Origin: Tribonema minus
Taxonomy: Eukaryota > Sar > Xanthophyceae > Tribonematales > Tribonemataceae
Reading direction: 5' to 3'
DNA length: 64,000 bases
NCBI GenBank assembly: GCA_017506865.1
Contig: JAFCMP010000525.1
Coordinates: 1,884,660-1,948,659, forward strand
How positions within the stretch are numbered: the stretch's first letter is position 1; the number at the start of each line of letters is the position of its first letter. The notes under the pieces were generated by a model that saw nothing but the letters and a program-made list of their open reading frames with translations, was not told the origin of the DNA and did no database searches. Shown piece after piece: positions 15,891 to 35,528 of the stretch. Made by a program: the position numbers and the translations under genes.

Positions 15891-15934
15891 AAAATCGAAA
15901 GAGTAGACACCACCAAATTGAGAGAGGTAAAAGT

Positions 15935-16438: not shown

Positions 16439-16479
16439 TCTTCGCACACGCTCTTATGCTCAAGCCACACACATGGAAT

Positions 16480-16790: not shown

Positions 16791-16859
16791 CCAAGGATGG
16801 TGAGAGCTCAACACATGCCAACTGTATTCTTGTATTTTTGAAAGTTTCTGAGGCTGTTC

Positions 16860-19578
16860 CTGTCGAGAAAAGCATTCACAACGTGCAAATAATTGTGGCT
16901 CAGGATCGGAAGTGGGGGTGAGGTCGGGCTAAGAGAGGTTCAAACATCGCCAGCATAAGCAGTCCCCATGCTCAGCCTTACAGCGCAGAGTTGAACTTAT
17001 GCTGAAAGTTGAAGTTGCTGTGGCTGGGCCTGTCGGAAAAAGTAGTTTTCAGAGGCTGACCCTAAATGGGGTCGGTACGACGCTCGCCAGGTTTTCGTAA
17101 AGTGCAAATAATTATGGTCCAGCATCAAAAGTGTAGGTGAGATCAGGCTAAGAGAGGTTCCAGCTGTCCCTACATGAGCGCTCGCCATACTAAGCCATAC
17201 CGCCTACAGTTGAACTTATGCTAAACTTCATCTTCCTGAGTCTTGAGCCTGTCGAGACAAGGGTTCATAAAGTGCAAGTAATAATGGCTCAGGATCAAAA
17301 GGGTTCACAAAGTGCAACTAATTATGGCTCAGGATCGAAAGTGTGGGTGAGGTCGGGCTAAGAGAGGTTCAAACATCGCCAGCATAAGCAGTCGCCATGC
17401 TCAGCCTTACAGCGCAGAGTTGAACTTATGCTGAAAGTTGAAGTTGCTGTGGCTGGGCCTGTCGAAAAAAGTATTTTTCAGAGGCTGACCCTAAATGGGG
17501 TCGGTACGACGCTCGCCAGGTTTTCGTAAAGTGCAAATAATTATGGTCCAGCATCAAAAGTGTAGGTGAGATCAGGCTGAGAGAGGTTCCAGCTGTCCCT
17601 ACACGAGCGCTCGCCATACTAAGCCATACCGCCTGCAGTTGAACTTATGCTAAACTTCAACTTCCTTAGTCTGGTCCTGTCGAGAAAAGGGTTCACAAAG
17701 TGCAAATAATTATGGCTCAGGATCGAAAGTGTGGGTGAGGTCGGGCTAAGAGAGGTTCAAACATCGCCAGCATAAGCAGTCGCCATGCTCAGCCTTACAG
17801 CGCAGAGTTGAACTTATGCTGAAAGTTGAAGTTGCTGTGGCTGGGCCTGTCGAAAAAAGTATTTTTCAGAGGCTGACCCTAAATGGGGTCGGTACGACGC
17901 TCGCCAGGTTTTCGTAAAGTGCAAATAATTATGGTCCAGCATCAAAAGTGTAGGTGAGATCAGGCTGAGAGAGGTTCCAGCTGTCCCTACACGAGCGCTC
18001 GCCATACTAAGCCATACCGCCTGCAGTTGAACTTATGCTAAACTTCAACTTCCTTAGTCTGGTCCTGTCGAGAAAAGGGTTCACAAAGTGCAAATAATTA
18101 TGGCTCAGGATCGAAAGTGTGGGTGAGGTCGGGCTAAGAGAGGTTCAAACATCGCCAGCATAAGCAGTCGCCATGCTCAGCCTTACAGCGCAGAGTTGAA
18201 CTTATGCTGAAAGTTGAAGTTGCTGTGGCTGGGCCTGTCGAAAAAAGTATTTTTCAGAGGCTGACCCTAAATGGGGTCGGTACGACGCTCGCCAGGTTTT
18301 CGTAAAGTGCAAATAATTATGGTCCAGCATCAAAAGTGTAGGTGAGATCAGGCTGAGAGAGGTTCCAGCTGTCCCTACATGAGCGCTCGCCATACTAAGC
18401 CATACCGCCTACAGTTGAACTTGTACTGCAACTTCAACTTCCTTAGTCTGGTCCTGTCGAGAAAAGGGTTCACAAAGTGCAAATAATTATGGCTCAGGAT
18501 CGAAAGTGTGGGTGAGGTCGGGCTAAGAGAGGTTCAAACATCGCCAGCATAAGCAGTCGCCATGCTCAGCCTTACAGCGCAGAGTTGAACTTGTGCTGAA
18601 AGTTGAAGTTGCTGTGGCTGGGCCTGTCGAAAAAAGTATTTTTCAGAGGCTGACCCTACATGGGGTCGGTACGACGCTCGCCAGGTTTTCGTAAAGTGCA
18701 AATAATTATGGTCCAGCATCAAAAGTGTAGGTGAGATCAGGCTGAGAGAGGTTCCAGCTGTCCCTACATGAGCGCTCGCCATACTAAGCCATACCGCCTA
18801 CAGTTGAACTTGTACTGCAACTTCAACTTCCTTAGTCTGGTCCTGTCGAGAAAAGGGTTCACAAAGTGCAAATAATTATGGCTCAGGATCGAAAGTGTGG
18901 GTGAGGTCGGGCTAAGAGAGGTTCAAACATCGCCAGCATAAGCAGTCGCCATGCTCAGCCTTACAGCGCAGAGTTGAACTTATGCTGAAAGTTGAAGTTG
19001 CTGTGGCTGGGCCTGGTCGAAAAAAGTATTTTTCAGAGGCTGACCCTAAATGGGGTCGGTACGACGCTCGCCAGGTTTTCGTAAAGTGCAAATAATTATG
19101 GTCCAGCATCAAAAGTGTAGGTGAGATCAGGCTGAGAGAGGTTCCAGCTGTCCCTACATGAGCGCTCGCCATACTAAGCCATACCGCCTACAGTTGAACT
19201 TGTACTGCAACTTCAACTTCCTTAGTCTGGTCCTGTCGAGAAAAGGGTTCACAAAGTGCAAATAATTATGGCTCAGGATCGGAAGTGTGGGTGAGGTCGG
19301 GCTAAGAGCGGTTCAAACATCGCCACCATTAGCAGTCGCCATACTCAGCCTTACAGCGCAGAGTTGAACTTATGCTGAAAGTTGAAGTTGCTGTGGCTGG
19401 GCCTGTCGGAAAAAGTATTTTTCAGAGGCTGACCCTAAATGGGGTCGGTACGACGCTCGCCAGGTTCTCGTAAATTGCAAATAATTATGGTCCAGCATCA
19501 AAGGTGTAGGTGAGATCAGGCTAAGAGAGGTTTCAGCTGTCTCTACATGAGCGCTCGCCATACTAAGCCATAACGGTA
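16860..19578 (+). repeat. ~388-bp satellite array, seven units, forward orientation
   Basis: Each unit holds two diverged half-monomers: (A) GTGCAAATAATTATGGCTCA to CGCAGAGTTGAACTTATGC and (B) GTGCAAATAATTATGGTCCA to the TGCAGTTGAACTTATGC-like end. The B landmark (CGAGCGCTCGCCATACTAAG or close) falls at about 17180, 17610, 17998, 18386, 18775, 19165 and 19553. The spacing is 388-390 except for a first step of about 429, caused by a ~41-bp internal duplication. The central units are almost identical, so the array was recently homogenised. The repeated 63-residue minus-strand frames in it are by-products of the repeat. Confidence 0.92.
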
Positions 19579-19696: not shown

Positions 19697-19959
19697 TGTG
19701 TTGAGAACCTCACACGCCGTACAGACTAACGGAGTTGCACTACACGGTCAATGACGAACAGAGCAGACAGCACACTGACACCTCACAGCACCTCTAAAGC
19801 AAGTGTGTGTGTTATCAGGCTATCGCTCACTCTGCAGTGACAGAAGAGATCACCCAAATCAACCAACTGTAACCGCCAATCCAAGAACTGTCTTGGAACT
19901 GTCCCAAACTTGAAGAAGAGACAAGTTGAACCAGGTGGCACCAATCCAGTGGCACCACA
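19697..19959 (-). repeat. 3' LTR of the Gypsy element (263 bp)
   Basis: On the + strand it runs TGTGTTGAGAACC ... GGCACCACA, so it has TG..CA ends. Positions 19725-19959 are identical, by eye, to 35289-35523. The first 28 bases (19697-19724), the U5 end in element orientation, are absent from the other LTR. Confidence 0.85.
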
Positions 19960-19975
19960 GTCACCCCCCCTAGGG
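19960..19975 (-). promoter_or_regulatory. Polypurine tract
   Basis: In element orientation, TAGGGGGGGTGAC lies immediately upstream of the 3' LTR start TGTGGTGCC. This is the expected primer site for plus-strand DNA synthesis. Confidence 0.6.
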
Positions 19976-20127
19976 CTTTGCTAGGCCCGAGAACAGAGAA
20001 GCAACCATGACTTCACTATGCGTGATTACGACACGACACAAGTGCAAGACTTGCACCCTAGAACATGTGAACTGTCTCTCACCCAGCGCACATGCGCTAT
20101 GCACGAAGAACACACATGAATGCTATA

Positions 20128-23100
20128 CTACTGCGATGCAATGCCCTCAAACGCAGCAATCTGTGTCTTGCTACCACACAGAAACCAAGTGCCTTGCGGT
20201 GACGTAGGCTCGGTGCCATACGTGTCAGCGTCAAGTGACAGCAAAGAGTACTTGCCCTCATCAACCCAGAACACCCTAAGACGCGGTGCCTGTTTGCGTG
20301 CGCGGGCTGCGGACTGCACTATGCCCACGACCTCCCCCTCATGCCACTGTGTATACACTGCACCGTCAGAAGCAGTCATCTGGTATACCACCATGATCTG
20401 CATACCCCTGACAGCGGTGCTGAGCAATGCCTTGCTACTGGGTGCCGACATGACAACATGCGCGCCGGGCGCAAGCTCGTATGACCCCCGCCCACACACA
20501 GCTAAGACGCCTCCGATGCCGCGCTGTTTCTCCGCCTTGCGCAGCGCCCGCCTGACGACCTCCGTGCCGGCGCCGTCGATCGCGAAGTCATCGCGCAGGT
20601 CGGCGGCGCGGCTCAACGAAGTCCAGTACTCGTGCAACGCCGCAGGGCACGCGTCCATGTTGAACGCGTCCTCCCAAGAATTGGCAACGTCGCCCTCCCA
20701 GCGTACGAGGTACTGTAGGCGCTGCCCGCGGCTGCGCGCCTCCGCAACAAGGCGATGGCGCAGCACTGCCTCCACTCCGTGACGCTCAGGGTCGGCGATG
20801 ACGTCATCGGCAGTGAGTGAGCCGGGCGATCGGCCGTGCCAATGCTTGGCAAGCAGGTAGCGGGCAAAGCCGGCTGGCAGTGTGCCGGGCGGTCCCTCGC
20901 TGTCGTTGGTGGGGTCACGGCACAGCTTGACAAGGTGGCGCGTGACGCGCGTGGGGCCCTCCTTCATGTCGATGACCAGCACACCGGATTGCACCGGCTT
21001 GCCGCCGAAGACGCTTGGACCGACGGCGAGGACACGATAGGGGCCCTGCCAGCGATCGAGCAGCTTCTTGCTGAACAGCGTCCGAAGTGGCGTGCCGAAC
21101 GTAGGTGAAGTCCGGTCGAGGTCGATGTCGCCGGCGGCAGCATGCGTGCGCGGCGCATGGTAGTACCACACGCGCTCGCCTGCCGCGTAGTGTGTGCGCA
21201 AGCCGAAAGCGCGCGCGAGCGCCTCGTTGTCCCGCAGCACACGGTCGCGACGCAGCGCATGCCGCTGAGCAGCAACATCGTGCGCGGCACGCTGGCGCTG
21301 CGTGAGCTCCTGTACAAGGTGAGCTACGGAGGGGCTCGTGCCTGGGGGCGCTATGGGCTTCTGCAACCTGCCTAGAAGGAGATGTAAGGCGTAGTGGGCC
21401 TCACGACCGGTGGCAAGTAGGTATGGAGTCGCGCCGGTTGCGCGGTTGTGTGCCGTGTTGTGCGCAAAAGCAATATGAGGCAACCAATCTGGCCAATCCC
21501 CCGCTGCACTATCGACTGTCATTGCCAACATTTGTGCCAGCTCCTGCATGAAGCGTTCGCACTTGCCGTTACACTCAGGGTGATATGCGGTAGTGCTCAG
21601 CTTGCGCATACCCATCTGCTGATAGAATGCGCGTGCAAGGGCCGACATGAAGATGCTGCCTCTATCGCTCAGGAGTTTGGCAGGTGTGCCATGGAGTGTG
21701 CTGTGCTGGTTGACTAAGATGTGAGCCGTGCCAACAGAGTTGAAGTTGTCTGGGGTGATAGGATAGCACCACACCCAGCCACTATACAAGTCCATGACTA
21801 CTAGAATGTAAGCGTGGCCGCTGTTACTGAGGGGCAACGGGCCAAAATGGTCGATAGCGATGGTATGAAAGGGAAAGGGGGGTCTCTCACGCCAAACGAG
21901 GGGGTGGCGCGAGAGTTTGCCAGTGTTCTTGTACGCCTGGCAAGGCCAACAATGACTAACCCAGTAGTTGACTGTGCGCGTCCAACTAGGCCACCAACAA
22001 TGTGCACGTACACGCTCTAGAGTGCGTTTGATGCCCTGATGACCTGCCCATGCACTACCGTGAAAGGCATCTAGAACAAGGGCACGCAAGGAGCGGGGCA
22101 CGACGATCTGCGCGACGTTGGGGGCGTCAGGGGGGTTGCGCACTAGCAGCTGACTGTCTCCACAGGCGCGCAGAGTGCAGTGCTGCGCCCATTGCTTCAC
22201 CTGTGTAGCAAGCGCCGCGTCATGAGGGAGCGCGCCATCGGCCAAGAAGGCGTGTAACGCGCCAAGCTGCTCATCCGCGCACTGCTCACGCTGCCAGTCA
22301 CCGGGGGTAAGCCGCCCGAGCTCCTCGTGCTGGGCAAATGCATCGCACGCGCCCGGAGCCACGCCCGCCGTCTCCGACATAGCAGCAAGCTCCCCCACGC
22401 CGCCCCCTTGCAATGCGTCAACAATGAGCATGCAAACCTCCAAGTACTCGCCGGTTGCGAGTGCCTCAAGGCGGTGGGCGTCGACGGCCTCCAGGCCGTA
22501 CGCGTGCAGGAGCCGCTCGCGCGTCGCCTCGGCGGCGTCCGCGGCAGTTGCGGGGAGTGGGTTGCGGCTCGGACCGTCGGCGTTGCCGTGAGCGCTGCCC
22601 TTCTTGAACACCACGTTGATGTCGAAGGCTGAGAGGAACTCGGCCCAGCGCCCGCCGCGCGCGGTGCGCTCACGGATGGACTCCATGTACTGCAGTGCGC
22701 GGTGGTCGGTGTAGAGCGTGAAGGGGGTACCCCACAGCATGTGGCGGAACTTCTTGATGCCGTTGACGATCGCGCCAGCCTCCAAGTCCGTGGTAGACCA
22801 GTTGCGCTCGTTGGGCAGCGTCGCGCGCGAGGTGAAGGCGATGGGCTGCTCGACGCCATCGACGTCAGCCTGTGACAGCACAGCGCCGAAGCCCTCCTTG
22901 CAGGCGTCGGTGGCGAGGATGAAGGGGCGCGCGCCGCTGGCGGCAGCAGTGTAGTCGGGGTAGCGCATGACGGTGTGCAGCGCCAATGCCTCGTTGACAG
23001 CGCGCATGGCGCGCCGCTGCTGGCTGTCGATGTTGAACTCCGCGCCTTTCGCCATTAGAGCAGTGAGAGGGGCCACTAGCTGAGCCATGCCGCGCACAAA

Positions 23101-24177
23101 GCGGCGGTAGTAGTTGGCGAGGCCTAGCCACGCGCGCAGCTGCGAGAGGTTACTGGGCTCAGGCATTTCTAGCAGGGCTTGGACTTTAGAAGGATCAGGC
23201 CTGATGCCATCTACGCCGACAATGTGGCCCAGAAACTTGACGTGCTTGCAGCCTACGTGGAGCTTGGCGGGGGCCAACTTCATACCGTGCTGCTCAAAAC
23301 GGGCAAAGACACCCTTAAGGTCGCTGAGGTGCTGATCGATGGATGTGCTGGACACTATGACGTCATCAATGTAGGGCTGTACGCGATTAAGGCCCGCGAG
23401 CACTGTCTGCATGAGGCGTGTGAAATGTCCAGGCGCACCGGCAGCACCCTGGGGGCAACGTAGCCACTCATAGAGGCCGAACGAGGTCACCATAGCGGTG
23501 AGGGGGATGGCGTCAGGGCTGATGGCAGAGGTGAAGTAGCCGCTCGTGATGTCCATGGTGCTGAAGACAGAGGACCCACCAAGACTGTTGAGCAAATCCT
23601 CAATGTTGGGGATGGGTATCTGTGGCACTATTGTCTGGGCGTTGAGCTTCTTGTAGTTAACAGTGATGCGTGCTGTGCCGTCTGGCTTGAGCACTGCCAC
23701 TACAGGGGATGCCCAGTTGGACAGAGAGGGCCGTATGATGCCAGCCGCAAGCAGCTTGTCAATCTCAACTTTGATGAGTGCCGTCATCGCAGGGGAGTAC
23801 CTGTAGGGGCGGTCGTGGCACGGCATAGTGCCCTCCTTTAAGTCAAGGCGGAAAGGCAGGGCATCACAGAACCCTACATCCCACTTATCCTTAGAGAAGG
23901 TTTTGCTGGCGTATTCTGCCAACATGAAGCACAGCCGCGCCACTTGGTCCGCATTCCACCCCTCAAGGTCCACGCGCACTGCCAACATATGAGCTGGCAA
24001 GCACTCGCGAGCCTTGTCTAGTGCTGCATTCACCTTGGGGTCTATGTGAGCATAAGTCCCCAAAGCAACGCCACCACTATCAGGTATATGTACTTTTGCA
24101 TCCCCCTGCTCTGGCTCAAAGGAGATCGACTCACCCAGCTGCTGCTGCAGCGCCTCGCGCACCGCTGCCGCGTCCAT
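20128..24177 (-). CDS. pol: Gypsy pol, C-terminal part: reverse transcriptase, RNase H, integrase, chromodomain
   Basis: 1,349 residues from ATG 24177 (MDAAAVREAL). The RT has KPDGTARITVNYKKLN and the catalytic YIDD at 269-272. RNase H has ILATDACKEGFGAVLSQ, then DLEAGAIVNGIKKF and YTDHRALQYM. The integrase zinc finger starts near 704 (HGSAWAGHQG and CWPCQAYK). The integrase core has D776 (AIDHFGPL), D838 (LLSDRGS) and E874 (GKCERF), a D-x35-E spacing. A chromodomain at about 1130-1185 has QYLVRWEGDVANSWED. The last ~150 residues (VVYQMTASDG, WHEGEVVGIV, LRVFWVDEGKYSLL, GTWFLCG) look like a small beta-barrel reader, perhaps Tudor/Agenet-like. In an unrearranged element this would be fused to the protease-methyltransferase part. 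Chromodomains on such integrases steer insertion to marked chromatin. Confidence 0.9.
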   Translation of the reverse strand: MDAAAVREALQQQLGESISFEPEQGDAKVHIPDSGGVALGTYAHIDPKVNAALDKARECLPAHMLAVRVDLEGWNADQVARLCFMLAEYASKTFSKDKWDVGFCDALPFRLDLKEGTMPCHDRPYRYSPAMTALIKVEIDKLLAAGIIRPSLSNWASPVVAVLKPDGTARITVNYKKLNAQTIVPQIPIPNIEDLLNSLGGSSVFSTMDITSGYFTSAISPDAIPLTAMVTSFGLYEWLRCPQGAAGAPGHFTRLMQTVLAGLNRVQPYIDDVIVSSTSIDQHLSDLKGVFARFEQHGMKLAPAKLHVGCKHVKFLGHIVGVDGIRPDPSKVQALLEMPEPSNLSQLRAWLGLANYYRRFVRGMAQLVAPLTALMAKGAEFNIDSQQRRAMRAVNEALALHTVMRYPDYTAAASGARPFILATDACKEGFGAVLSQADVDGVEQPIAFTSRATLPNERNWSTTDLEAGAIVNGIKKFRHMLWGTPFTLYTDHRALQYMESIRERTARGGRWAEFLSAFDINVVFKKGSAHGNADGPSRNPLPATAADAAEATRERLLHAYGLEAVDAHRLEALATGEYLEVCMLIVDALQGGGVGELAAMSETAGVAPGACDAFAQHEELGRLTPGDWQREQCADEQLGALHAFLADGALPHDAALATQVKQWAQHCTLRACGDSQLLVRNPPDAPNVAQIVVPRSLRALVLDAFHGSAWAGHQGIKRTLERVRAHCWWPSWTRTVNYWVSHCWPCQAYKNTGKLSRHPLVWRERPPFPFHTIAIDHFGPLPLSNSGHAYILVVMDLYSGWVWCYPITPDNFNSVGTAHILVNQHSTLHGTPAKLLSDRGSIFMSALARAFYQQMGMRKLSTTAYHPECNGKCERFMQELAQMLAMTVDSAAGDWPDWLPHIAFAHNTAHNRATGATPYLLATGREAHYALHLLLGRLQKPIAPPGTSPSVAHLVQELTQRQRAAHDVAAQRHALRRDRVLRDNEALARAFGLRTHYAAGERVWYYHAPRTHAAAGDIDLDRTSPTFGTPLRTLFSKKLLDRWQGPYRVLAVGPSVFGGKPVQSGVLVIDMKEGPTRVTRHLVKLCRDPTNDSEGPPGTLPAGFARYLLAKHWHGRSPGSLTADDVIADPERHGVEAVLRHRLVAEARSRGQRLQYLVRWEGDVANSWEDAFNMDACPAALHEYWTSLSRAADLRDDFAIDGAGTEVVRRALRKAEKQRGIGGVLAVCGRGSYELAPGAHVVMSAPSSKALLSTAVRGMQIMVVYQMTASDGAVYTQWHEGEVVGIVQSAARARKQAPRLRVFWVDEGKYSLLSLDADTYGTEPTSPQGTWFLCGSKTQIAAFEGIASQ

Positions 24178-25856
24178 GGGAGCCGCTCCAGCGTCCGCGT
24201 CAGTGTTCGCGTCTCTAGTGCGGCTCCACGCCTCCGTGCGAAGGCTGAGAGGAACTCGGCCCAGCGCCCGCCGCGCGCGGTGCGCTCACGGATGGACTCC
24301 ATGTACTGCAGTGCGCGGTGGTCGGTGTAGAGCGTGAAGGGGGTACCCCACAGCATGTGGCGGAACTTCTTGATGCCGTTGACGATCGCGCCAGCCTCCA
24401 AGTCCGTGGTAGACCAGTTGCGCTCGTTGGGCAGCGTCGCGCGCGAGGTGAAGGCGATGGGCTGCTCGACGCCATCGACGTCAGCCTGTGACAGCACAGC
24501 GCCGAAGCCCTCCTTGCAGGCGTCGGTGGCGAGGATGAAGGGGCGCGCGCCGCTGGCGGCAGCAGTGTAGTCGGGGTAGCGCATGACGGTGTGCAGCGCC
24601 AATGCCTCGTTGACAGCGCGCATGGCGCGCCGCTGCTGGCTGTCGATGTTGAACTCCGCGCCTTTCGCCATTAGAGCAGTGAGAGGGGCCACTAGCTGAG
24701 CCATGCCGCGCACAAAGCGGCGGTAGTAGTTGGCGAGGCCTAGCCACGCGCGCAGCTGCGAGAGGTTACTGGGCTCAGGCATTTCTAGCAGGGCTTGGAC
24801 TTTAGAAGGATCAGGCCTGATGCCATCTACGCCGACAATGTGGCCCAGAAACTTGACGTGCTTGCAGCCTACGTGGAGCTTGGCGGGGGCCAACTTCATA
24901 CCGTGCTGCTCAAAACGGGCAAAGACACCCTTAAGGTCGCTGAGGTGCTGATCGATGGATGTGCTGGACACTATGACGTCATCAATGTAGGGCTGTACGC
25001 GATTAAGGCCCGCGAGCACTGTCTGCATGAGGCGTGTGAAATGTCCAGGCGCACCGGCAGCACCCTGGGGGCAACGTAGCCACTCATAGAGGCCGAACGA
25101 GGTCACCATAGCGGTGAGGGGGATGGCGTCAGGGCTGATGGCAGAGGTGAAGTAGCCGCTCGTGATGTCCATGGTGCTGAAGACAGAGGACCCACCAAGA
25201 CTGTTGAGCAAATCCTCAATGTTGGGGATGGGTATCTGTGGCACTATTGTCTGGGCGTTGAGCTTCTTGTAGTTAACAGTGATGCGTGCTGTGCCGTCTG
25301 GCTTGAGCACTGCCACTACAGGGGATGCCCAGTTGGACAGAGAGGGCCGTATGATGCCAGCCGCAAGCAGCTTGTCAATCTCAACTTTGATGAGTGCCGT
25401 CATCGCAGGGGAGTACCTGTAGGGGCGGTCGTGGCACGGCATAGTGCCCTCCTTTAAGTCAAGGCGGAAAGGCAGGGCATCACAGAACCCTACATCCCAC
25501 TTATCCTTAGAGAAGGTTTTGCTGGCGTATTCTGCCAACATGAAGCACAGCCGCGCCACTTGGTCCGCATTCCACCCCTCAAGGTCCACGCGCACTGCCA
25601 ACATATGAGCTGGCAAGCACTCGCGAGCCTTGTCTAGTGCTGCATTCACCTTGGGGTCTATGTGAGCATAAGTCCCCAAAGCAACGCCACCACTATCAGG
25701 TATATGTACTTTTGCATCCCCCTGCTCTGGCTCAAAGGAGATCGACTCACCCAGCTGCTGCTGCAGCGCCTCGCGCACCGCTGCCGCGTCCATGGGAGCC
25801 GCTCCAGCGTCCGCGTCAGTGTTCGCGTCTCTAGTGCGGCTCCACTCCTCCGTGCG
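22625..25856. repeat. 1,616-bp tandem duplication inside pol
   Basis: 22625-24240 and 24241-25856 are near-identical; one difference was noticed, CCACGCCTCC against CCACTCCTCC near 24231. The unit covers the region before the RT, the RT and most of RNase H. Since 1,616 is not a multiple of three, the upstream frame is lost at the junction (24240/24241) and ends at 24042. Only short junction homology (CG) is visible. Confidence 0.92.
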
Positions 25857-26201
25857 CATGTCCAGCGAAAAGATGCCGCTGAGCGCATTGCCACCACCTT
25901 CACCCCCCCCCGAAGAAGTGCCATTTCCCGCCGCTGCGGCGGGCTCCGCCGCCGCAGCGCGCGTTAAAGTAGGCAATGACGGGGCATGCACAGCTGCTGC
26001 TGCGGCGGGAGCCGCCGCCTCAGTGCTGCGCGCAGGTGATGATGTTGTCGCCGGCGCCACCGCGGCCGCCGAGGCCGCGGCGCGCGCGCCGTGCGTTGAA
26101 GTGCAAGCTGATGCCATCACACGTGCCGCCGCGGCAGGAGCCGCGCGCGCGTGCTGCGAACAAGTAGGCGTCGGTACCGCCGCTGCTGCATCCGGCGCAG
26201 G

Positions 26202-26232
<31 letters not shown>

Positions 26233-29200
26233 GCTGCTGCTGCTGGCGGCGCCGTCGCCGCCGCCGCTGCTGCCGCGGACTGCGCTGCTGCTGCGCGCAC
26301 CTTGTCGGGCGCGCGAGGCAATGCCGACGCGGCAGCACCTGCCGCCATGTCGCGCATGCGCTGCCTTGCTGCAGCTGCGAGCTTGACGCCGTACGTGCCG
26401 AAAGCGACGTGCGTGCCGGTGTTGATCAGCGTCTGAATCTCAGGTGGCAGGGTCCGCGCCGCTTGCTCTGCAGCGTCATGGAAGACGCCGCTCTGCTGCA
26501 GGATGTCGCCAACCAGCTCCGCCATGCGCGGCGCCACCGCATTGGCAAGGTACTGCGCATATGCGGCGACGTCGCCGGCCTCCGGCGCGTCCCACTTGTA
26601 GGTGGCAGGAAAGCTGTGAATTGCGCGCAGTGCTGACCACGGCAGATGCTCAGCGCGCGCAAACTCGGCCGGGTCTTGAGTGGCATCCTTTGGACGCATG
26701 GTGCACTGTACACCAGTTGGCTTGGGGTCGCGACGGTAGGTGCTGCCGCGCGTAGTCGGCGCTGGTCCGTCCATGCTGTAGACCTGCTTGGAGAGACGGT
26801 TGCGGCCAACTGACGTGAAGAGCTGCCGCTGCTGACCGCTGCTGTCGGGTACGTCGCCGGTGACCTCACGCACTGACTCGTACGCGGCTCCGGCCTTGGC
26901 AAAGGCCAATAGCTCGCGCGCGTGCGCCATGGACGCGCGCATGCGCGCGCTGTCATGCTCGCCGCTGCCGGGCCGCGCTAGCACATAGAACACGCGATGG
27001 CGCGTTTGTGCAAGGTGCGCGTCGTCCCCACGAATGTACAGCGCCTCCTGTAGCGTAAAGCCGCCGTGGTGAGCGCACCGCAAGAACTCCGTGAGCTCGG
27101 GCGCGCTCTGCAAGCCGGGCACGTTCTCCAGCAGAAGCAACCGGCAGCAGTCTGCGCCCATGGCAACCTCCAACATGTAGTACAAGTGCTGGATGCCAAG
27201 TGCCGTTAGCCGCGTGCCGGCATACGAGTAGCGGGTGCATGGTGGGCTGCCAAAGAGCACCTGCGCCTGTAGGCGCTGCATGGCAGTGATCAGCTCGCGC
27301 CGCGTCTCTGGCAGCGCCATGTCGCGCCGCAGCGTCTGCGTACCGGGGTGATTAGCGCTGTAGATGTCCAGTGCGCGCTGTTCGTGGTCGATGGCGAGGG
27401 CGATGTCAGCGTAGTGGCGGAGGCCCTCCGCCATACCGCCGGCGCCGCAGTATACCTCCACGGCGCGGGGGCGGTCGGCATGCTCACGGTGCATGTCGTC
27501 GGCAGGTACACTGCGAAGTGGAATCGCCTTGCCGAGCACTGTGCCACGTGGCAGGCTGAATGGAACGTTGGCGCGCTGCTGCAGGAGCACTGGCTTGGCA
27601 AAGGTGCCCGTAGCTAGCTCCGTGCTGGCGACAGTATCTGCATGGGCTGCTGACACCAGGACCTGTACCATCTGCTCCGCCGGGGCTTGCACTGGTGTTA
27701 CGCCGTCTGCCTCCATGACCTGAATCCACACTGGTGTGGCGGACTCAGCAGGTGTCTCCGGTGAATGCGCGTCCACACGCACTACTGCCACCCACTGCTT
27801 GTCAGTGTCGTATGCGTAGCACGGGGGCGTAGGAGATGAGTAGGCTGCAGAGTCGCTTTGTGTGGGCTGGGCCTGTGGATGAGCGCTGCCGAACTTGTAC
27901 TCAGTGCTGCCAGGTGGTGGGGACTCGTCGCTGCCAAAGCCGTACAAAGGTGTGTTGGCGGCAGTCCAGGGGTGACGGTTGATGAAGTCACGCCCCAGAA
28001 TGAAGTCGTACGGCAGGTGCGGTACCACAAGCGCCATGACGGGAGCTGAAAGGCCATGCGTGCCGACTGCGCCGAACTGTAGGGCCACAATGATGGTGAC
28101 CTTCTGCGGGGCAGCACTGGTGTCGATACCGGCAATGCTGCGCGCTGCAGTCAGCTTCTGGACGTCGGCACTGTCAATGGCCCCACCAGCTAGTAGACGC
28201 TCATAACAGCGCTGTGAGATGGCAGTTACTGACGCACCAGAGTCCCACAGGCTACGCTTGATGAAAGACGACCGCTGCGCGCGGGCTGAGCGCAGCCTAC
28301 ACCTGAAGAGGGAGTTCAAGTCAGCATGCACAGAGCCGCGCAGCTTGCCTGACTCAACCTGTTGTGCCAGCGGAAGTAGCTGCGCCTCCAATGCCACCAC
28401 CTCCGCGTAGTACTGGAAGATGGCAGCGTCGCTGACACCAGGCCCGTGCGTGCGGCTCTCTGGCGTGTAGAGCGCTGAGATGAGGCCGTTGACATACACC
28501 GCGACGCGCGCTGCGTCCACCGCTGCCTCTTCTCGCCCCAAGCTGTCCAAGCCGTCTTCCGCAACATCGGCCAGCGTAGTGGAACCCCCACTATGATGCA
28601 ACGTCGGAGTGGCCAGGCCGGCCCACTCGTCCTCGTCAATGCTCGCCTGTAGCTGACGCTGGGAGCGTGCCTTGGTCTCCTTCTGCTGCGCGTGTCGCTG
28701 CGCTGCGCACGCCTTGAAGTCTGCCCATTGCGCGCGCGCCGAGGCGTTGCTGCTGCCGGTGGCGCCAGTTGAGGGTGTCTCCTTTGGCGCCGCCGCCGCC
28801 GCAGCCGCCGCTGCTGCTGCCGGTGCTGCCGGCGCTGCCGGCGCCGGCGCCGCCGCCGCCGCCGCAGCAGCAGCTGCCGTCGCTGATGGCGCAGCATGCT
28901 GGCAGAGGCGCAAATGTGCAGCGTCGGTCTGCCGTTCTTGACATGAGCGCAGCAGTAGCACGGTGTAGTATGGGTCTTCACCGGCTTGGGTGTGCACAGC
29001 AAGGATCTTGGCAGGCTCGCCCTCCGCTGCACCCTGCTTCAGATATGTCACCAGCGCGCCTTTGGTGAAGGTAGCGCTGCCGTCGCCGCATGCGGCTGAC
29101 CTTGAAGTAGGTGCTGCTGGGCTTGGAGCAGAAGGTGATGAGGTTGAAGTTGATGCAGGTCGTGATGAGGTTGAAGTTGATGCAGGTCGTGGTGAAGCTG

Positions 29201-29564
29201 AAGTAGATGCAGCGTGCGCCATCGCGGGCGCCGCCGTCGTTGATATTGCTGCCGCAGTTGATGGGAGCCGCTCCAGCGTCCGCGTCAGTGTTCGCGTCTC
29301 TAGTGCGGCTCCACTCCTCCGTGCGCATGTCCAGCGAAAAGATGCCGCTGAGCGCATTGCCACATCAACTGCGGCAGCAATATCAACGACGGCGGCGCCC
29401 GCGATGGCGCACGCTGCATCTACTTCAGCTTCACCACGACCTGCATCAACTTCAACCTCATCACGACCTGCATCAACTTCAACCTCATCACCTTCTGCTC
29501 CAAGCCCAGCAGCACCTACTTCAAGGTCAGCCGCATGCGGCGACGGCAGCGCTACCTTCACCAA
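24042..29564 (-). CDS. pol: Gypsy pol segment: protease, C5 DNA methyltransferase, reverse transcriptase (rearranged)
   Basis: The open frame of 1,840 codons has no ATG at its 5' limit and starts in rearranged DNA. The aspartic protease motif LWDSGASVT is at about 439-447. The methyltransferase spans ~698-1025: motif I EVYCGAGGMAEGLR, motif IV GSPPCTRYS with catalytic Cys 776, motif VI LLLENVPG with Glu 813, motif VIII AQTRHRVFYVLAR near 852, motif IX MDGPAPTTRGST, motif X ANAVAPRMAELV near 1005. All key residues for C5 cytosine methylation are present and no reader domain is attached. A long Ala-rich linker follows, then RT with YIDD at 1526. The RNase H is cut off by the 1,616-bp duplication, leaving a ~60-residue out-of-frame tail. 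Methyltransferase capture by LTR elements is known from dinoflagellates and Klebsormidium. Confidence 0.9.
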
Positions 29565-31226
29565 AGGTGCCCGTAGCTAGCTCCGTGCTGGCGACAGTAT
29601 CTGCATGGGCTGCTGACACCAGGACCTGTACCATCTGCTCCGCCGGGGCTTGCACTGGTGTTACGCCGTCTGCCTCCATGACCTGAATCCACACTGGTGT
29701 GGCGGACTCAGCAGGTGTCTCCGGTGAATGCGCGTCCACACGCACTACTGCCACCCACTGCTTGTCAGTGTCGTATGCGTAGCACGGGGGCGTAGGAGAT
29801 GAGTAGGCTGCAGAGTCGCTTTGTGTGGGCTGGGCCTGTGGATGAGCGCTGCCGAACTTGTACTCAGTGCTGCCAGGTGGTGGGGACTCGTCGCTGCCAA
29901 AGCCGTACAAAGGTGTGTTGGCGGCAGTCCAGGGGTGACGGTTGATGAAGTCACGCCCCAGAATGAAGTCGTACGGCAGGTGCGGTACCACAAGCGCCAT
30001 GACGGGAGCTGAAAGGCCATGCGTGCCGACTGCGCCGAACTGTAGGGCCACAATGATGGTGACCTTCTGCGGGGCAGCACTGGTGTCGATACCGGCAATG
30101 CTGCGCGCTGCAGTCAGCTTCTGGACGTCGGCACTGTCAATGGCCCCACCAGCTAGTAGACGCTCATAACAGCGCTGTGAGATGGCAGTTACTGACGCAC
30201 CAGAGTCCCACAGGCTACGCTTGATGAAAGACGACCGCTGCGCGCGGGCTGAGCGCAGCCTACACCTGAAGAGGGAGTTCAAGTCAGCATGCACAGAGCC
30301 GCGCAGCTTGCCTGACTCAACCTGTTGTGCCAGCGGAAGTAGCTGCGCCTCCAATGCCACCACCTCCGCGTAGTACTGGAAGATGGCAGCGTCGCTGACA
30401 CCAGGCCCGTGCGTGCGGCTCTCTGGCGTGTAGAGCGCTGAGATGAGGCCGTTGACATACACCGCGACGCGCGCTGCGTCCACCGCTGCCTCTTCTCGCC
30501 CCAAGCTGTCCAAGCCGTCTTCCGCAACATCGGCCAGCGTAGTGGAACCCCCACTATGATGCAACGTCGGAGTGGCCAGGCCGGCCCACTCGTCCTCGTC
30601 AATGCTCGCCTGTAGCTGACGCTGGGAGCGTGCCTTGGTCTCCTTCTGCTGCGCGTGTCGCTGCGCTGCGCACGCCTTGAAGTCTGCCCATTGCGCGCGC
30701 GCCGAGGCGTTGCTGCTGCCGGTGGCGCCAGTTGAGGGTGTCTCCTTTGGCGCCGCCGCCGCCGCAGCCGCCGCTGCTGCTGCCGGTGCTGCCGGCGCTG
30801 CCGGCGCCGGCGCCGCCGCCGCCGCCGCAGCAGCAGCTGCCGTCGCTGATGGCGCAGCATGCTGGCAGAGGCGCAAATGTGCAGCGTCGGTCTGCCGTTC
30901 TTGACATGAGCGCAGCAGTAGCACGGTGTAGTATGGGTCTTCACCGGCTTGGGTGTGCACAGCAAGGATCTTGGCAGGCTCGCCCTCCGCTGCACCCTGC
31001 TTCAGATATGTCACCAGCGCGCCTTTGGTGAAGGTAGCGCTGCCGTCGCCGCATGCGGCTGACCTTGAAGTAGGTGCTGCTGGGCTTGGAGCAGAAGGTG
31101 ATGAGGTTGAAGTTGATGCAGGTCGTGATGAGGTTGAAGTTGATGCAGGTCGTGGTGAAGCTGAAGTAGATGCAGCGTGCGCCATCGCGGGCGCCGCCGT
31201 CGTTGATATTGCTGCCGCAGTTGATG
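27600..31226. repeat. Duplicated protease-region segment (1,963-bp offset)
   Basis: About 27600-29262 is repeated at 29563-31225 with no difference noticed by eye. Between the copies lie a ~99-bp piece matching 25797-25895 and an inverted copy of the segment's own 5' end. The offset (1,963) is not a multiple of three, so the protease frame from gag cannot run into the methyltransferase in this copy. Confidence 0.9.
29060..29569. repeat. Palindrome with ~200-bp arms and ~99-bp captured spacer
   Basis: 29060-29262 and about 29365-29569 are reverse complements (for example CGTTGATATTGCTGCCGCAG against CTGCGGCAGCAATATCAACG). The spacer, from GGAGCCGCTCC to GCGCATTGCCA, copies the linker just before the RT (about 25797-25895). 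The arms code the Ser/Thr/Ala-rich linker in front of the protease region. Confidence 0.88.
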
Positions 31227-31983
31227 GGGCAGCCCCCACCCCCCCTTGATCGCGAACGTCCCCTGAGCCAGCGCAGGTCGCTGATGCGCGCCGCGCCGGC
31301 GTGCCGCGCTGAAACGCAGCTGTCCCGCGCGCCGCCGTAGCCGTCGCGGAGTTACTGTAGGGGGTCGCGAAGCCAGCCGTCTTGAGGTCTTGCTGCGCCG
31401 CGCGGCGGTGCCACGCGCGCTGCTGAGCCCCTGATGACGATGCAGGTATGAAGGGCGAGGCGGCGGGGCGCAAGTTGCTACCTGCACGCAGAGAAGATGG
31501 TACCTTGGGCGCCGCTGGCGCCGCAGCGCTCCGTGGCGCTGCTGCTGACAGTGTGTGTGCGGCGCTCACCGGCGCCTTCACCGCAGTAGAATGCGCCGCG
31601 AGCGGCGCGGCGCCTGCGAGCGCCGCTGCCGTCGCAGCGCCTTGGAGCGCAGCTGCTACAGATGTTGCGAGCGGTGGCGCCACCGTAGAAGCTATGCCCG
31701 CCGCCGCTGGGGCGGCGGCCGCAGGCGCCGCCGCCGCCGCAGCTGAGGCGGCGCCTGCCGGCGCCGCTGTCGTAGGGAGATAAGGCGGTTGTTGCCGCAG
31801 CTGTGATGCTGCCGCTGCAACCACGAGCGGCTGCTGCTGCTGCTGCTGTTGACCAGCTGCTGCAACCGCGGGCGCGCCGTGCGCGCTGACTGCCGTCCGG
31901 GGCGGGGCGTCACTCCCGCCCCCCGTAACACTAGGACCCCCAAGTGCTCTCCCCACGCCGAGGGCTGGCGTGGGGTCGCACCC
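29527..31983 (-). CDS. Gypsy pol N-terminal part with aspartic protease, entered by readthrough
   Basis: This frame continues directly from gag after the TAG at 31984-31986 and has no ATG of its own at the start; the first Met-like codon at 31956 is GTG. Residue numbers are counted from 31956. The first ~270 residues are an Ala/Pro-rich linker. A region with a second linker of Ser/Thr repeats and VTYLKQGAAEG, YYTVLLLRSCQ follows. The retropepsin motif LWDSGASVT has its Asp near 584, with FILGRDFINRH about 90 residues later. Retropepsins act as dimers to cut Gag and Gag-Pol. The frame ends soon after the duplication border at about 29563. Confidence 0.8.
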   Translation of the reverse strand, partial: GCDPTPALGVGRALGGPSVTGGGSDAPPRTAVSAHGAPAVAAAGQQQQQQQPLVVAAAASQLRQQPPYLPTTAAPAGAASAAAAAAPAAAAPAAAGIASTVAPPLATSVAAALQGAATAAALAGAAPLAAHSTAVKAPVSAAHTLSAAAPRSAAAPAAPKVPSSLRAGSNLRPAASPFIPASSSGAQQRAWHRRAAQQDLKTAGFATPYSNSATATAARGTAAFQRGTPARRASATCAGSGDVRDQGGVGAAPSTAAAISTTAAPAMAHAASTSASPRPASTSTSSRPASTSTSSPSAPSPAAPTSRSAACGDGSATFTKGALVTYLKQGAAEGEPAKILAVHTQAGEDPYYTVLLLRSCQERQTDAAHLRLCQHAAPSATAAAAAAAAAAPAPAAPAAPAAAAAAAAAAAPKETPSTGATGSSNASARAQWADFKACAAQRHAQQKETKARSQRQLQASIDEDEWAGLATPTLHHSGGSTTLADVAEDGLDSLGREEAAVDAARVAVYVNGLISALYTPESRTHGPGVSDAAIFQYYAEVVALEAQLLPLAQQVESGKLRGSVHADLNSLFRCRLRSARAQRSSFIKRSLWDSGASVTAISQRCYERLLAGGAIDSADVQKLTAARSIAGIDTSAAPQKVTIIVALQFGAVGTHGLSAPVMALVVPHLPYDFILGRDFINRHPWTAANTPLYGFGSDESPPPGSTEYKFGSAHPQAQPTQSDSAAYSSPTPPCYAYDTDKQWVAVVRVDAHSPETPAESATPVWIQVMEADGVTPVQAPAEQMVQVLVSAAHADTVASTELATGTFGEGSAAVAACG

Positions 31984-31986
31984 CTA
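31951..31986 (-). promoter_or_regulatory. Candidate readthrough signal: TAG followed by a 9-bp hairpin
   Basis: In element orientation the gag stop TAG (31986-31984) is followed by eight bases and then a perfect stem CCCCACGCC / GGCGTGGGG with a 7-base loop (31975-31951). Gag and pol are in the same frame. Murine leukaemia-type retroviruses use a UAG with an eight-base spacer and a structured element to make Gag-Pol; the layout here is alike, but function is inferred. Confidence 0.65.
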
Positions 31987-34900
31987 GGTGTTGCGCCCGC
32001 CGCCGCCGCGGCTAGCGCCGCCACCACTGTAGCCGCCGCGGCAACCACCGCGTCCTCCGCCGTTGCCACGCCTGCTGAATGCCGCCTGCGCCGACCTGCC
32101 GCGTTCCCCCCGTTCTGCACCCTGTACCGCCCGCGCGCATAGCTGCTTGAAGTCTTCAGCGCTGCTCGGCCGGAACTTGACCACCCACGGCTGCCGCTGG
32201 ACCGCTGCGTCCCAGTTCTCAGCGCTGTAGTCGGCGTCGCACCGCGCGAACACGTGCTCAGTGCTGCCGCAGTTGAAGCATGCGCGGGTACGTCCCGGGA
32301 GAGTGTTGCAGATCTCGTAGATCGCGTACTGCACTTGGCAGCGCTGCTGCTCCTCGTGCGCGGCCGCCCTGCGCGCCTCCTTCTCAGCAGCAGCGGCGAT
32401 GTTGTCGCGGTTTGGCTTGCTAGGCAATGACCTGCCTGCACCGCCGCCGCCGCCGCCGCCTCGGTTGAGCCCTTTGCCGTAGGAGACCAGGTTTGTGGGA
32501 TAGACAGGGCGGTCTTCCAGGGGCGCCGTAGAGTAGTGGTCAGCGCCCTGTGCCTCCTCCGCCAGGATCGCAAGTAGATCCGCCGAGCGTGCCGTGGGCT
32601 CTAGGATGGCCTGCTTGTAGGGCCCTGAGATGTAGGGATAGTGGTGGCGTATGATCCGCTGCAGTGCGGTGACCACGATGTGGTCAAGAGACTTGTCCAG
32701 CGATGTGGCGATCTGGGCGGCGTCTGAAAACTCCACGATGAAGTATTTGAGCGCCAGCCCTTGACGCAGTGACCAGTTCATCAGGTTGGCAGCCACCGCG
32801 GTGGGCTCCTCAATCTCCAGGAACTTGGCGATTTTGGTGAAGAGCCATGAGAGTAGCGCGCCGTCGCGCAGGCCCTGCTCACTGCCCTGCATCTCCCACG
32901 AGGCTGCCTGACGGGCCAGCATGTTGAGCCGTGGGTGATCGCCGCCGCCGTCGGCTATGCAGTTTACGATGCTGTAGACCGCGGTGACGTACCACTCGCA
33001 GCCAAAGTCGTCTGCATTGCACAGGGCAGGCCACAGCGGCCTCTGCTTCTGCCGCAGAGCGAGCGCCGCCGACCGAAACTTGCCAGGAAGCTGCCGCTGC
33101 AGAGAGGTGAGAGCAGAAATGTTTCCCTGGTCGACCTTGGTCTTAGGGAAGTGCTTCTCGTCCAGTGTGACCGCAAACCGCATGTTTGCATACCCCTCTG
33201 AGTCGAAGCCTGACAGGTCTCCCGCCCCTGCTGCCGCCACTGCTGCTGGTGCTGCTGCGGCCATGGAGGCGCGGCGCGCGCCGTCGCCACCACTGCTCGG
33301 GGCGCCGCTGCTGGAACCACCGTCATCACCACCATCGCCGCCACCACCATCGCCGCCGTTGCCGCCAATGCCATCGCCGCCGCGGCGCACACCACCTAGA
33401 CTGGAAGTGCCGCCGCCGCCGGCGCAACTGTTGCGCGCGTGCGGCCGCTCAGACTTGGCCGCGTCCAGAGCGCGCCATTCAGCGCGTAGCTCAGCCTGTT
33501 GCGCGTCCAATGCACGCTGCTGCGCATCCCTTTCGCGCTGCCACAGCGCAGCCTGCGCGCCAAACTGTGACTGCTCGCTACGAAGCACCTGCTGCTGGTT
33601 CAGAGTCTGCTCCTGTTGAGCCCGCTCGCGCTCGCGACGCGCCGCCGCTGCCAACGCCTCTGCTTTCACGTCACGCTCACGCTGCGCCGCCACTGCCAGC
33701 GCCTCTGCATGCATCTGCTCCGCTAGGCGGCCCTGTGTGGTCTGCGTATGCGTAATCGTGTATGTAGTTGGGTGGCGTGCCTGGCGCGCCGCGCCCTCCA
33801 GCTGCGCGCGCGCATCCGACTTCAGCATGTCCATCTGGTCACGCTGCTGCGATGCCGAGTCAAGGTCAGTGCCGCGAAGGGGCACATATGGCTCTGGTGC
33901 GGCGAACATGGATTTGTAGGCAGCTGGCTGTGGTGCGGGCGCATTGACGGGTATGGTTGCCGCGAGCGATGATGATGGTGCGCCGGCCGAGAGCGCTCGC
34001 GCGGGCGCAATAGCCGCAACAGAGGGCGCCGGTGAAGCAAGCGACGCCGCAGGTAGAGCCGGAGGCCGAGGCAGAAGCGCGGAACGGGCGCTGCGCATGG
34101 AGCGTAGGTCAACGTCCTGACGGATAGCGCCACCCTCGCCAAAAGTGCGCAAGTTTCGCTCACTGAGCTCAGCGCGCGAGGTAGACTCAGGCTGCTCAAG
34201 CACGCTGCGGTGTGTGGACTCCGACGCGGGTGTGGAAGAGCGAGGCGCCCGCGCCTGGCGTAGCTCATCTACCGCCGCCGTCAGCCCGTCTGTACGGCGT
34301 GTGAGGTTCTCAACACAGTTCATCGCAAGCTGGTGGTTGCCCTTGCCGGTCTTCATCACCTCATTGAGTTGCTGCTGCAGGACCTCAACCACCAGCTCTG
34401 CATTATCTGCGCGCGTTCCGTTGCTTTTGGCCCTAGATTCAGCCAATTCCAGACGCCTCTGGAAGTTATCCATCTCATTACGTAAAGCTGCTGCAAACTG
34501 TGCGTGCACGCGCTCCTGCTCACCTACAATGTCCTGTAGGCCGATGATCTGGTCTGTTGCTGTGGCGTACCTGTGCTGCAGGTCGCCGATCAGGCTGACG
34601 GCCATGCTAAGCGGGGCGAGAGTAAAGCCGGCTCTCAGCATCTCCCTGATTTGCTGGTTATAGTCCAGCTGCTCCTCACCCCCCCTTTCCCGCAGGCCGT
34701 CGGGTGTGGAAATGTAACCATCATGACGGTGATCGCGGAAGCAGCTGCTGCCGCCGGTATCGACGCTGGCGGTTTCCAGGGCGTCGTTGATGGTGTTGCC
34801 GATGCCCACGGCCTCGCCATGGACAGATATATGCTCCTCGCTACGGGGCGCCCCAGCGGCCAAGCCGAGACCACCACTGGCGATGGAGCTCCTCGCCGAT

Positions 34901-35229
34901 GTGCTAGTTGCAGACAACTGGCGATCGTCTGCTGCTGCACCGACGTAGGTTGCACGAGGAGAGAGACCCAGGCCAACAAGGGCGTCCTGCCGGAGCACAG
35001 CAGGCGGCACAGTTGCGGTCGTTGTCTCGTCGCCGTGGCTAACTGGCTGCAGCGGATCCTCCGCCACAGCAGGGACAGCGAAGAGGCGGTGCCCGGCCTC
35101 TCCATTGTCGACTTCACGCGCAGTGGTCTCAGTCTTCGCCTTCTCGGCGGACCAATTGCCTAGGAGTGGCGAACCTCGGTCGGCAAGAGACGTGCGCGTG
35201 CCATGCGGGCGCTCTCTGTTAATCGGCAT
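31984..35229 (-). CDS. gag: Gypsy Gag polyprotein
   Basis: 1,081 residues from ATG 35229, with only 59 bases of leader to the shared LTR sequence. Coiled-coil-like helices occur at about 220-330 (LQDIVGEQERVHAQFAAAL) and 480-600 (many QRERD/REREA heptads). Gly/Ala-rich linkers lie between. A helical capsid-like region at about 695-910 has ISALTSLQRQLPGKF, WEMQGSEQGLRDGALLSWLF and WSLRQGLALKYFIVEF. A CCHC zinc knuckle CFNCGSTEHVFARC lies at 984-997. The C-terminus is Arg/Gly-rich, typical of RNA-binding nucleocapsid. Gag packages the element RNA and forms the particle. It is unusually long for a Gypsy Gag. Confidence 0.85.
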   Translation of the reverse strand: MPINRERPHGTRTSLADRGSPLLGNWSAEKAKTETTAREVDNGEAGHRLFAVPAVAEDPLQPVSHGDETTTATVPPAVLRQDALVGLGLSPRATYVGAAADDRQLSATSTSARSSIASGGLGLAAGAPRSEEHISVHGEAVGIGNTINDALETASVDTGGSSCFRDHRHDGYISTPDGLRERGGEEQLDYNQQIREMLRAGFTLAPLSMAVSLIGDLQHRYATATDQIIGLQDIVGEQERVHAQFAAALRNEMDNFQRRLELAESRAKSNGTRADNAELVVEVLQQQLNEVMKTGKGNHQLAMNCVENLTRRTDGLTAAVDELRQARAPRSSTPASESTHRSVLEQPESTSRAELSERNLRTFGEGGAIRQDVDLRSMRSARSALLPRPPALPAASLASPAPSVAAIAPARALSAGAPSSSLAATIPVNAPAPQPAAYKSMFAAPEPYVPLRGTDLDSASQQRDQMDMLKSDARAQLEGAARQARHPTTYTITHTQTTQGRLAEQMHAEALAVAAQRERDVKAEALAAAARRERERAQQEQTLNQQQVLRSEQSQFGAQAALWQRERDAQQRALDAQQAELRAEWRALDAAKSERPHARNSCAGGGGTSSLGGVRRGGDGIGGNGGDGGGGDGGDDGGSSSGAPSSGGDGARRASMAAAAPAAVAAAGAGDLSGFDSEGYANMRFAVTLDEKHFPKTKVDQGNISALTSLQRQLPGKFRSAALALRQKQRPLWPALCNADDFGCEWYVTAVYSIVNCIADGGGDHPRLNMLARQAASWEMQGSEQGLRDGALLSWLFTKIAKFLEIEEPTAVAANLMNWSLRQGLALKYFIVEFSDAAQIATSLDKSLDHIVVTALQRIIRHHYPYISGPYKQAILEPTARSADLLAILAEEAQGADHYSTAPLEDRPVYPTNLVSYGKGLNRGGGGGGGAGRSLPSKPNRDNIAAAAEKEARRAAAHEEQQRCQVQYAIYEICNTLPGRTRACFNCGSTEHVFARCDADYSAENWDAAVQRQPWVVKFRPSSAEDFKQLCARAVQGAERGERGRSAQAAFSRRGNGGGRGGCRGGYSGGGASRGGGGRNT

Positions 35230-35274
35230 GCTGTCGCTACAGCAGTAACTGACGGTCTAATGGAAGGCCGCTTT

Positions 35275-35288
35275 CGTACCGGGAACCA
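35275..35288 (-). promoter_or_regulatory. Possible primer-binding site
   Basis: In element orientation TGGTTCCCGGTACG directly follows the end of the 5' LTR block; a TGG start matches the CCA end of a tRNA. Because this LTR seems to lack its last 28 bases, the neat position may be chance. Confidence 0.35.
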
Positions 35289-35523
35289 ACTAACGGAGTT
35301 GCACTACACGGTCAATGACGAACAGAGCAGACAGCACACTGACACCTCACAGCACCTCTAAAGCAAGTGTGTGTGTTATCAGGCTATCGCTCACTCTGCA
35401 GTGACAGAAGAGATCACCCAAATCAACCAACTGTAACCGCCAATCCAAGAACTGTCTTGGAACTGTCCCAAACTTGAAGAAGAGACAAGTTGAACCAGGT
35501 GGCACCAATCCAGTGGCACCACA
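35289..35523 (-). repeat. 5' LTR of the Gypsy element, lacking 28 bp of U5
   Basis: It is identical by eye to 19725-19959. It ends at CACCACA followed by the GTAAC target duplication. The 28 bases corresponding to 19697-19724 are absent at the gag side. Confidence 0.85.
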
Positions 35524-35528
35524 GTAAC
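35524..35528. repeat. Target-site duplication GTAAC, right copy
   Basis: Pairs with 19692-19696. Confidence 0.8.

Follow-up and report, generated by a model that had tools for sequence, protein, structure and literature searches.

The described systems closest to the element reported here are retrotransposons that carry cytosine-5 (C5) DNA methyltransferases (MTases); statements about published work, here and below, are limited to the extracts of each source that were at hand. In Klebsormidium nitens, KnitGypsy-Dnmt3 is a Gypsy long terminal repeat (LTR) element with a C5-MTase in its Pol open reading frame (ORF), and its copies are intronless, conserve the catalytic residues and evolve under purifying selection (Ka/Ks < 0.2) (de Mendoza et al., 2018; PMC5890265). 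In Symbiodinium, retrotransposon-borne DNMTs number in the hundreds (SymbioDIRS-Dnmt3 and SymbioLINE-Dnmt), the ORF of the DIRS forms including reverse transcriptase (RT), and two of these enzymes were CG-active in yeast (PMC5890265). LTR and DIRS elements that bear members of DNMT3 have also been mentioned elsewhere (PMC12344493), and stramenopiles are said to be among the groups with Gypsy and DIRS elements that encode DAM and DCM, in general wording that names none in the extract (PMC6338049). Here we describe an element of the Gypsy type with a C5-MTase in its pol, found in the stramenopile Tribonema minus (Xanthophyceae) within a window of 64,000 nucleotides (contig JAFCMP010000525.1, positions 1,884,660 to 1,948,659).

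In the window, the MTase shares a single minus-strand ORF of 1844 amino acids with a protease and with RT and RNase H. Positions 26475–27494 (domain P0001, core 26487–27467) read without a stop as a C5-MTase (Pfam DNA_methylase, E=1.5e-16), with motifs I, IV (PPC, containing the catalytic Cys86), VI (ENV), VIII (QxRxR) and X. The same frame holds an aspartic protease at 27975–28250 (E=0.0014, under the curated cut-off; the second of two copies), RT at 24834–25307 (PF00078, E=8.1e-23) and RNase H at 24240–24545 (PF17917, E=3.5e-33). An earlier reading of the letters alone, referred to below as the sequence-only reading, had placed a C5-MTase with intact motifs between protease and RT of a Gypsy pol, in the frame of both; the ORF and its Pfam domains confirm the placement, and every motif it named is present in the stop-free translation. 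The domain is predicted to be structurally complete, its AlphaFold model having a predicted local distance difference test (pLDDT) score of 88.7 with a 30-row alignment that included bacterial MTases, and 70.3 with nine rows.

A second, adjoining ORF on the same strand carries Pfam matches to RT, RNase H, integrase and a chromodomain. The integrase zinc-binding and core domains lie at 21577–22101 (PF17921, E=4.4e-18; PF00665, E=1.5e-7, slightly below cut-off), and the chromodomain at 20620–20775 (PF00385, E=1.6e-5, at cut-off). A chromodomain C-terminal to integrase is a chromovirus hallmark, and its presence contradicts the earlier description of the element as reader-free. The chromodomain stretch was also matched in L037 of family C and L038 of family D (families are defined below); as the protease falls under its cut-off and the chromodomain only reaches it, both calls lean also on conservation in other families.

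The same arrangement recurs across the genome. In an own-genome domain search of the 158-Mb assembly, 121 of 398 candidates were scored, so that counts are lower bounds, and fragments were counted apart; at least 124 matches to the MTase domain were found, over half of them partial. Partial matches in such numbers, together with the broken state of the window copy, would suit a chance-caught passenger now decaying, of which the window copy is one relic. Against this, 51 matches span at least 320 of the 332 residues (a hand count that includes the window), and 47 of these 51 are stop-free, so that the other in-frame copies whose absence would have told against the sequence-only reading do exist; 19 of the 124 lie in open frames of at least 2,500 residues. 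By MTase identity the copies form families A (94–100%), B (80%), C (63–66%) and D (36–38%), and the order protease–MTase–RT is kept from A to D, that is, at 36% MTase identity. The MTase is likewise retained in metagenome relatives. A search with PF00145, in which 123 of 378 candidates were scored and all 123 exceeded the cut-off, with frames reaching 3,501 residues, revealed additional MTase families in long frames: E (C404, L045), F (C89, L046) and G (C4, L047). In family E an RT follows the MTase on that strand without a change of frame (RVT_1, E=2.3e-33), and the open frame of the MTase row is 3,177 residues long; F and G are known from MTase sequence alone.

Selection also argues against decay. 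Ratios of nonsynonymous to synonymous substitution (dN/dS) were estimated by the Nei–Gojobori method for pairs with at least 15 differences, L012 (which has a stop) and 16 partial or interrupted RT rows being skipped. For the MTase they were 0.066–0.108 between subgroups of A, 0.140–0.164 from A to B, and 0.187–0.256 from A to C with dS above 1.1; two D copies gave 0.185. RT gave 0.069 within A and 0.115–0.125 from A to C. The MTase thus appears equally constrained with RT among close copies and about half as constrained between A and C. By domain, the A-to-C ratio was 0.237 for the MTase, close to RNase H (0.195), protease (0.197) and chromodomain (0.179); the RT core (0.079) and integrase (0.114) were more constrained, and gag (0.417) less. 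We conclude that the MTase is under purifying selection within families A–C. The relaxed selection and broken motifs that might have undone the sequence-only reading are therefore not what these families display, with ratios of 0.066–0.256, and we regard a decaying passenger as very improbable.

Intact copies show the complete element. In C66 and C312 it consists of an LTR (233–240 bp), gag (1090 codons), a TAG, pol (2758 codons) and a second LTR, with pol ordered protease–MTase–RT–RNase H–integrase–chromodomain; pol reaches 2936 codons in the longest copies of family C. From the pol order, the direct LTRs and the Pfam matches, we classify the element as a Ty3/Gypsy LTR retrotransposon. LTR pairs were 99.1–100% identical in six of eight A and C copies, examined in 20-kb regions (C66, C312, C340, C551, C41 and C291), which indicates that recent copies exist; no pair was found at the search cut-offs in C279 and C423. 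A 4-bp target-site duplication was seen by eye in two of five copies (C66 and C312) and in none of the window copy, C291 and C340.

Gag and pol lie in one frame, separated by a single TAG followed by GGG, at all nine junctions found in the eight A and C copies; the same junction occurs in the window copy and in D_C212, and D_C550 has a TAG ahead of its ORF without the TAG-GGG context. In the window, the gag ORF (31987–35256, minus strand; 1090 codons) gave no match in a Pfam search and contains a zinc-knuckle-like CFNCGSTEHVFARC noted by eye. It is followed by the TAG at 31984–31986 and, 8 nucleotides further on, by a 9-bp RNA hairpin at 31951–31975, which the sequence-only reading had missed. 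Of the 36 cells that four distinct sequences contribute to this hairpin, 97.2% are paired, as compared with 42–64% in slid controls, and at four of its nine pairs both bases differ between families A, C and D, a number reached by 9 of 500 shuffles; family D has a 3-base insert within the stem. Corresponding sites were noted at L029:5718–5767 and L039:7643–7692. A pseudoknot after the gag stop was also considered and rejected, since its loop–downstream pairing was matched by 660–2090 of 5000 shuffles and so is not above chance. The TAG-GGG junction with its hairpin is, on these comparisons, a well-supported candidate for retroviral-style readthrough of the gag stop. Rice Gypsy elements include readthrough candidates (PMC2754532), and the arrangement of a gag TAG in the pol frame, an 8-nt spacer and then an RNA structure is shared with murine leukaemia virus (MLV)-type readthrough and with the rice Gypsy element RIRE2 (cited in PMC2754532). 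The structure is a pseudoknot in MLV (PMC2754532), in contrast to the covarying hairpin of the T. minus element, where readthrough is predicted.

The MTase looks DCM/HaeIII-like rather than Dnmt3-like in its sequence profile. Its nearest profiles were PHROG 116 (E=8.6e-24) and DCM-type proteins, and its identity to bacterial and phage DCM-type C5-MTases (M.HaeIII, PHROG 116, P0015/P0029) is ∼20–30%; P0029, named Aureimonas, is a free-standing MTase, unlike that of the element. With a profile of families A–D, the scores were 130 bits for a metagenome MTase, up to 92 for other DCM-type enzymes, 50.0 for DNMT2 and 38.7 for DNMT1, with the caveat that most DCM-type rows had themselves been found by a related profile, which biases these scores in their favour. 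Among the three DNMT references, DNMT2 and DNMT1 were detected by this profile and DNMT3A was not, even at E 1000. The 50 PDB matches at E≤0.01 with one profile and the 50 at E≤0.001 with another included no DNMT3 chain; nor was one present in the 50 rows of a VIA-align structure comparison, which by itself excludes nothing.

DNMT2 was the best-scoring PDB family with both profiles (52.9 and 82.6 bits). These scores would suit an enzyme that targets RNA in the manner of DNMT2, for instance the tRNA primer or the genomic RNA, as would the dN/dS values, which indicate that some activity is conserved. We consider an RNA target quite unlikely.

Trees were less decisive than profiles. In the final MTase tree, built without TmC_C84 (misframed, eight stops) and P0028C, families A–D and three metagenome proteins formed one clade (100/100) and E–G another (100/100); a single origin of the two was not rejected (approximately unbiased test, p-AU 0.22). 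Two metagenome proteins grouped with T. minus families, P0026 with family B and P0010 with one of the D copies. The families therefore probably predate those splits, whatever the metagenome hosts are. The phylogenetic check against DCM and DNMT families that the sequence-only reading had proposed gave a partial answer: a clade with DNMT1, for which there was one reference, was rejected (p-AU 0.020), a clade with DNMT2 was marginal (p-AU 0.070), and neither a clade with the single, long-branched DNMT3A (p-AU 0.151) nor one with P0015/P0029 (p-AU 0.36) was rejected. The tree test therefore leaves the origin unsettled. Taking profile scores and p-AU values together, we believe that the MTase probably derived from a DCM-type, bacterial-like enzyme rather than from a host Dnmt3. 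No donor was apparent: a two-pattern scan of viral contigs matched 72 stretches and one of genome contigs 24, with no relative confirmed in either, and phage records gave nine weak partial matches, none spanning 80% of the domain.

The host background bears on what such an enzyme might do. Published work describes T. minus as lacking DNMT1 and possessing DNMT5, HELLS and CDCA7 (PMC10538959). Cryptococcus uses DNMT5 to maintain methylation and lacks de novo activity (PMC10538959), which makes it plausible that an element would bring a de novo enzyme of its own. We propose that ribosomes would pass the gag TAG to make gag-pol, so that the MTase would be packaged alongside RT and integrase. It would then carry out de novo methylation of short sites, with CpG as the best guess, in newly made double-stranded cDNA or in the recent insert, while the chromodomain would direct insertion into heterochromatin. 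The DNMT5/HELLS/CDCA7 machinery of the host could thereafter copy the mark, leaving the copy quiet and tolerated soon after landing; less harm to the host would follow, and the lineage would persist. We judge the chances of this joint reading to be evenly balanced. The position of the MTase beside RT in gag-pol, which suits access to cDNA, would also serve an enzyme whose methylated cytosines shield cDNA against nucleases or deaminases of the host or of viruses, or one that acts as an antiviral tool. Protection of cDNA has been discussed for the retrotransposon enzymes (PMC5890265) and an antiviral role elsewhere (PMC6338049); we hold such a function to be a real but minor possibility.

If the element methylates its own copies, a footprint might be expected, and what we found is weak and mixed. 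The test left out L011 (poorly aligned, with ∼360 differences from its sisters) and, in family C, L016, and it was made without group A (L001–L006), since five of the six loci there barely differ from one another. At seven A′ loci, 11 of 17 single C>T changes fell at CpG, compared with an expected 32% (p=0.006). The observed/expected CpG ratio in the window was 0.97 within the element and 0.83 outside. Methylation of CpG or of its own copies by the element, as suggested by the sequence-only reading, remains an inference.

Several observations weigh against methylation of its own DNA by an active element enzyme. Seven of the 11 CpG changes at the A′ loci stem from one copy, and the test fails in family C, where overlapping sets gave 3 of 9 (p=0.57) and 9 of 20 (p=0.09). 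The best eukaryotic sequence match of the MTase is DNMT2, a tRNA enzyme. MTase dN/dS between families A–C and the D copy L039 was 0.54–0.68, pairs with the D copy L038 were mostly saturated, with one at 0.27, and RT is damaged in the D copies read. The Gly of motif I is changed in two A copies, the Pro of PPC is lost in families E (SSC) and G (APC), and the Asn of motif X is lost in F and G. These losses suggest that some lineages may do without full activity, and the MTases of E and G nevertheless gave a dN/dS of 0.208 (dS 1.6) despite them. Finally, the KnitGypsy-Dnmt3 and SymbioLINE domains were inactive in yeast, a result that their authors call inconclusive (PMC5890265).

The reported absence of DNMT1 and presence of DNMT5, together with the large number of element MTases, could also be taken to mean that the MTase serves the host, with the elements as the de novo arm and DNMT5 as the maintenance arm of one system. 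PF00145 matches that lie outside the element families (twice in C223, and in C181 and C523) speak against such a division of labour, which we consider unlikely. A stronger claim about supply, that de novo cytosine methylation in T. minus comes mainly or solely from the Gypsy families that carry an MTase, seems to us doubtful to a like degree. Three of the outside matches, L049 and L050 (C223:937851–938390 and 702721–703250) and C181:39962–40456, match PF00145 more strongly, in frames of 367–390 residues with GFPC in L049 and L050, and may be host or endogenous giant-virus genes.

The window copy itself is a rearranged one, occupying 19725–35525 on the minus strand as a 12.2 kb element with internal duplications. 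It aligns to the 12,218-bp C66 copy at 99.9% in three overlapping pieces (35523–29562, 29265–24239 and 24240–19727), and one of the joints holds an inverted stretch of 210 bases. Two tandem duplications lie inside it, at 22623–24239 and 27599–29562, with offsets of 1616 and 1963 bases; they account for a first protease copy at 29938–30213 (PF13975, E=3.9e-4, under the curated cut-off), a duplicated RT at 23218–23691 (E=5.3e-23) and a duplicated RNase H at 22624–22929 (E=2.2e-33). The 5′ LTR (35291–35525, 235 bp) and the 3′ LTR (19725–19959), placed by LTR comparison and alignment to C66, are identical over 240 bp, and no target-site duplication was visible by eye at the flanks. The rearrangement may be an aberrant reverse transcription product or an assembly fault; inverted pieces were seen in the C423 and C41 copies as well.

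About 150 bases from the element lies a 389-bp tandem array (17297–19572, strand not assigned), and a related array in reverse sense, judged by eye, lies at 43657–45483, 24 kb from the first. The arrays are possibly heterochromatic satellite; if so, they would fit insertion steered by the chromodomain. Elsewhere, a complete family C copy (L029+L030, C340:2189–19323) has LTRs at 2189 and 14710; ∼760 bases beyond it a second copy begins, of which LTR and gag (15682–19323) are present before the contig end cuts it off. Family C copies seem clustered near contig ends, for which the simpler reason is that contigs break in repeats. A published T. minus gene model, P0023 (C533:1714412–1715836), fuses part of an abundant RT family, with at least 45 scored matches, to pieces of the MTase element, so that gene annotation of such repeats is misleading. 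Residues 1–475 of P0023 align to C533 at 100%, and pieces of another T. minus protein, P0012, align to C30 at up to 97%.

If these Gypsy families were indeed the main or only de novo source, parasites would write marks that a host maintenance enzyme copies, and the host methylome would in effect record the activity of retrotransposons. The element also makes it directly testable whether a maintenance-type system can receive its de novo methylation from a transposon. Close relatives with contrasting methylation systems offer a natural experiment: brown algae have no DNA methyltransferases except DNMT2, and CG methylation is almost 80% in Schizocladia, which has DNMT1 (PMC13076208), set beside the reported DNMT5 system of T. 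minus, without DNMT1 (PMC10538959). Tribonema is not mentioned in that source or in PMC9998398. Among the open-licence papers listed and in the extracts at hand, no Gypsy cytosine MTase from a named stramenopile was found.

Among stramenopile elements, the chromodomain Gypsy elements of Ectocarpus (ECR-1 included) and a Tudor-domain Gypsy with a T. minus homologue resemble the present one in that their pols end in chromatin readers (PMC12477816). They differ in that no Gypsy cytosine MTase is described for them in the extract and Ectocarpus lacks cytosine methylation; the chromodomain Gypsy lineages of Ectocarpus are, moreover, unrelated to chromoviruses (PMC12477816). The sequence-only reading had counted both dinoflagellates and Klebsormidium as hosts of LTR elements with MTases. 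This is correct for the Gypsy element of Klebsormidium, whereas the Symbiodinium systems belong to the tyrosine-recombinase DIRS and the long interspersed nuclear element (LINE) classes, their DIRS enzymes being Dnmt3-class (PMC5890265). KnitGypsy-Dnmt3 likewise carries a Dnmt3-class MTase, and its repeats are reportedly DIRS-like in arrangement; its domain order is given in a figure only, and 'protease' is absent from the extract of the text (PMC5890265). The T. minus element has ordinary LTRs, a chromodomain and a stramenopile host, and its profile misses DNMT3, a comparison in which DNMT3A stood in for the class and the Klebsormidium enzyme is set apart by its description. As its MTase profile is not Dnmt3-like, the element is probably not simply another KnitGypsy-Dnmt3. 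It adds a third host lineage, the Xanthophyceae among stramenopiles, to the two in which cytosine methyltransferases borne by retrotransposons have been reported; here the enzyme is unlike Dnmt3 in appearance, several families exist side by side, and one polyprotein combines a putative writer with a reader.
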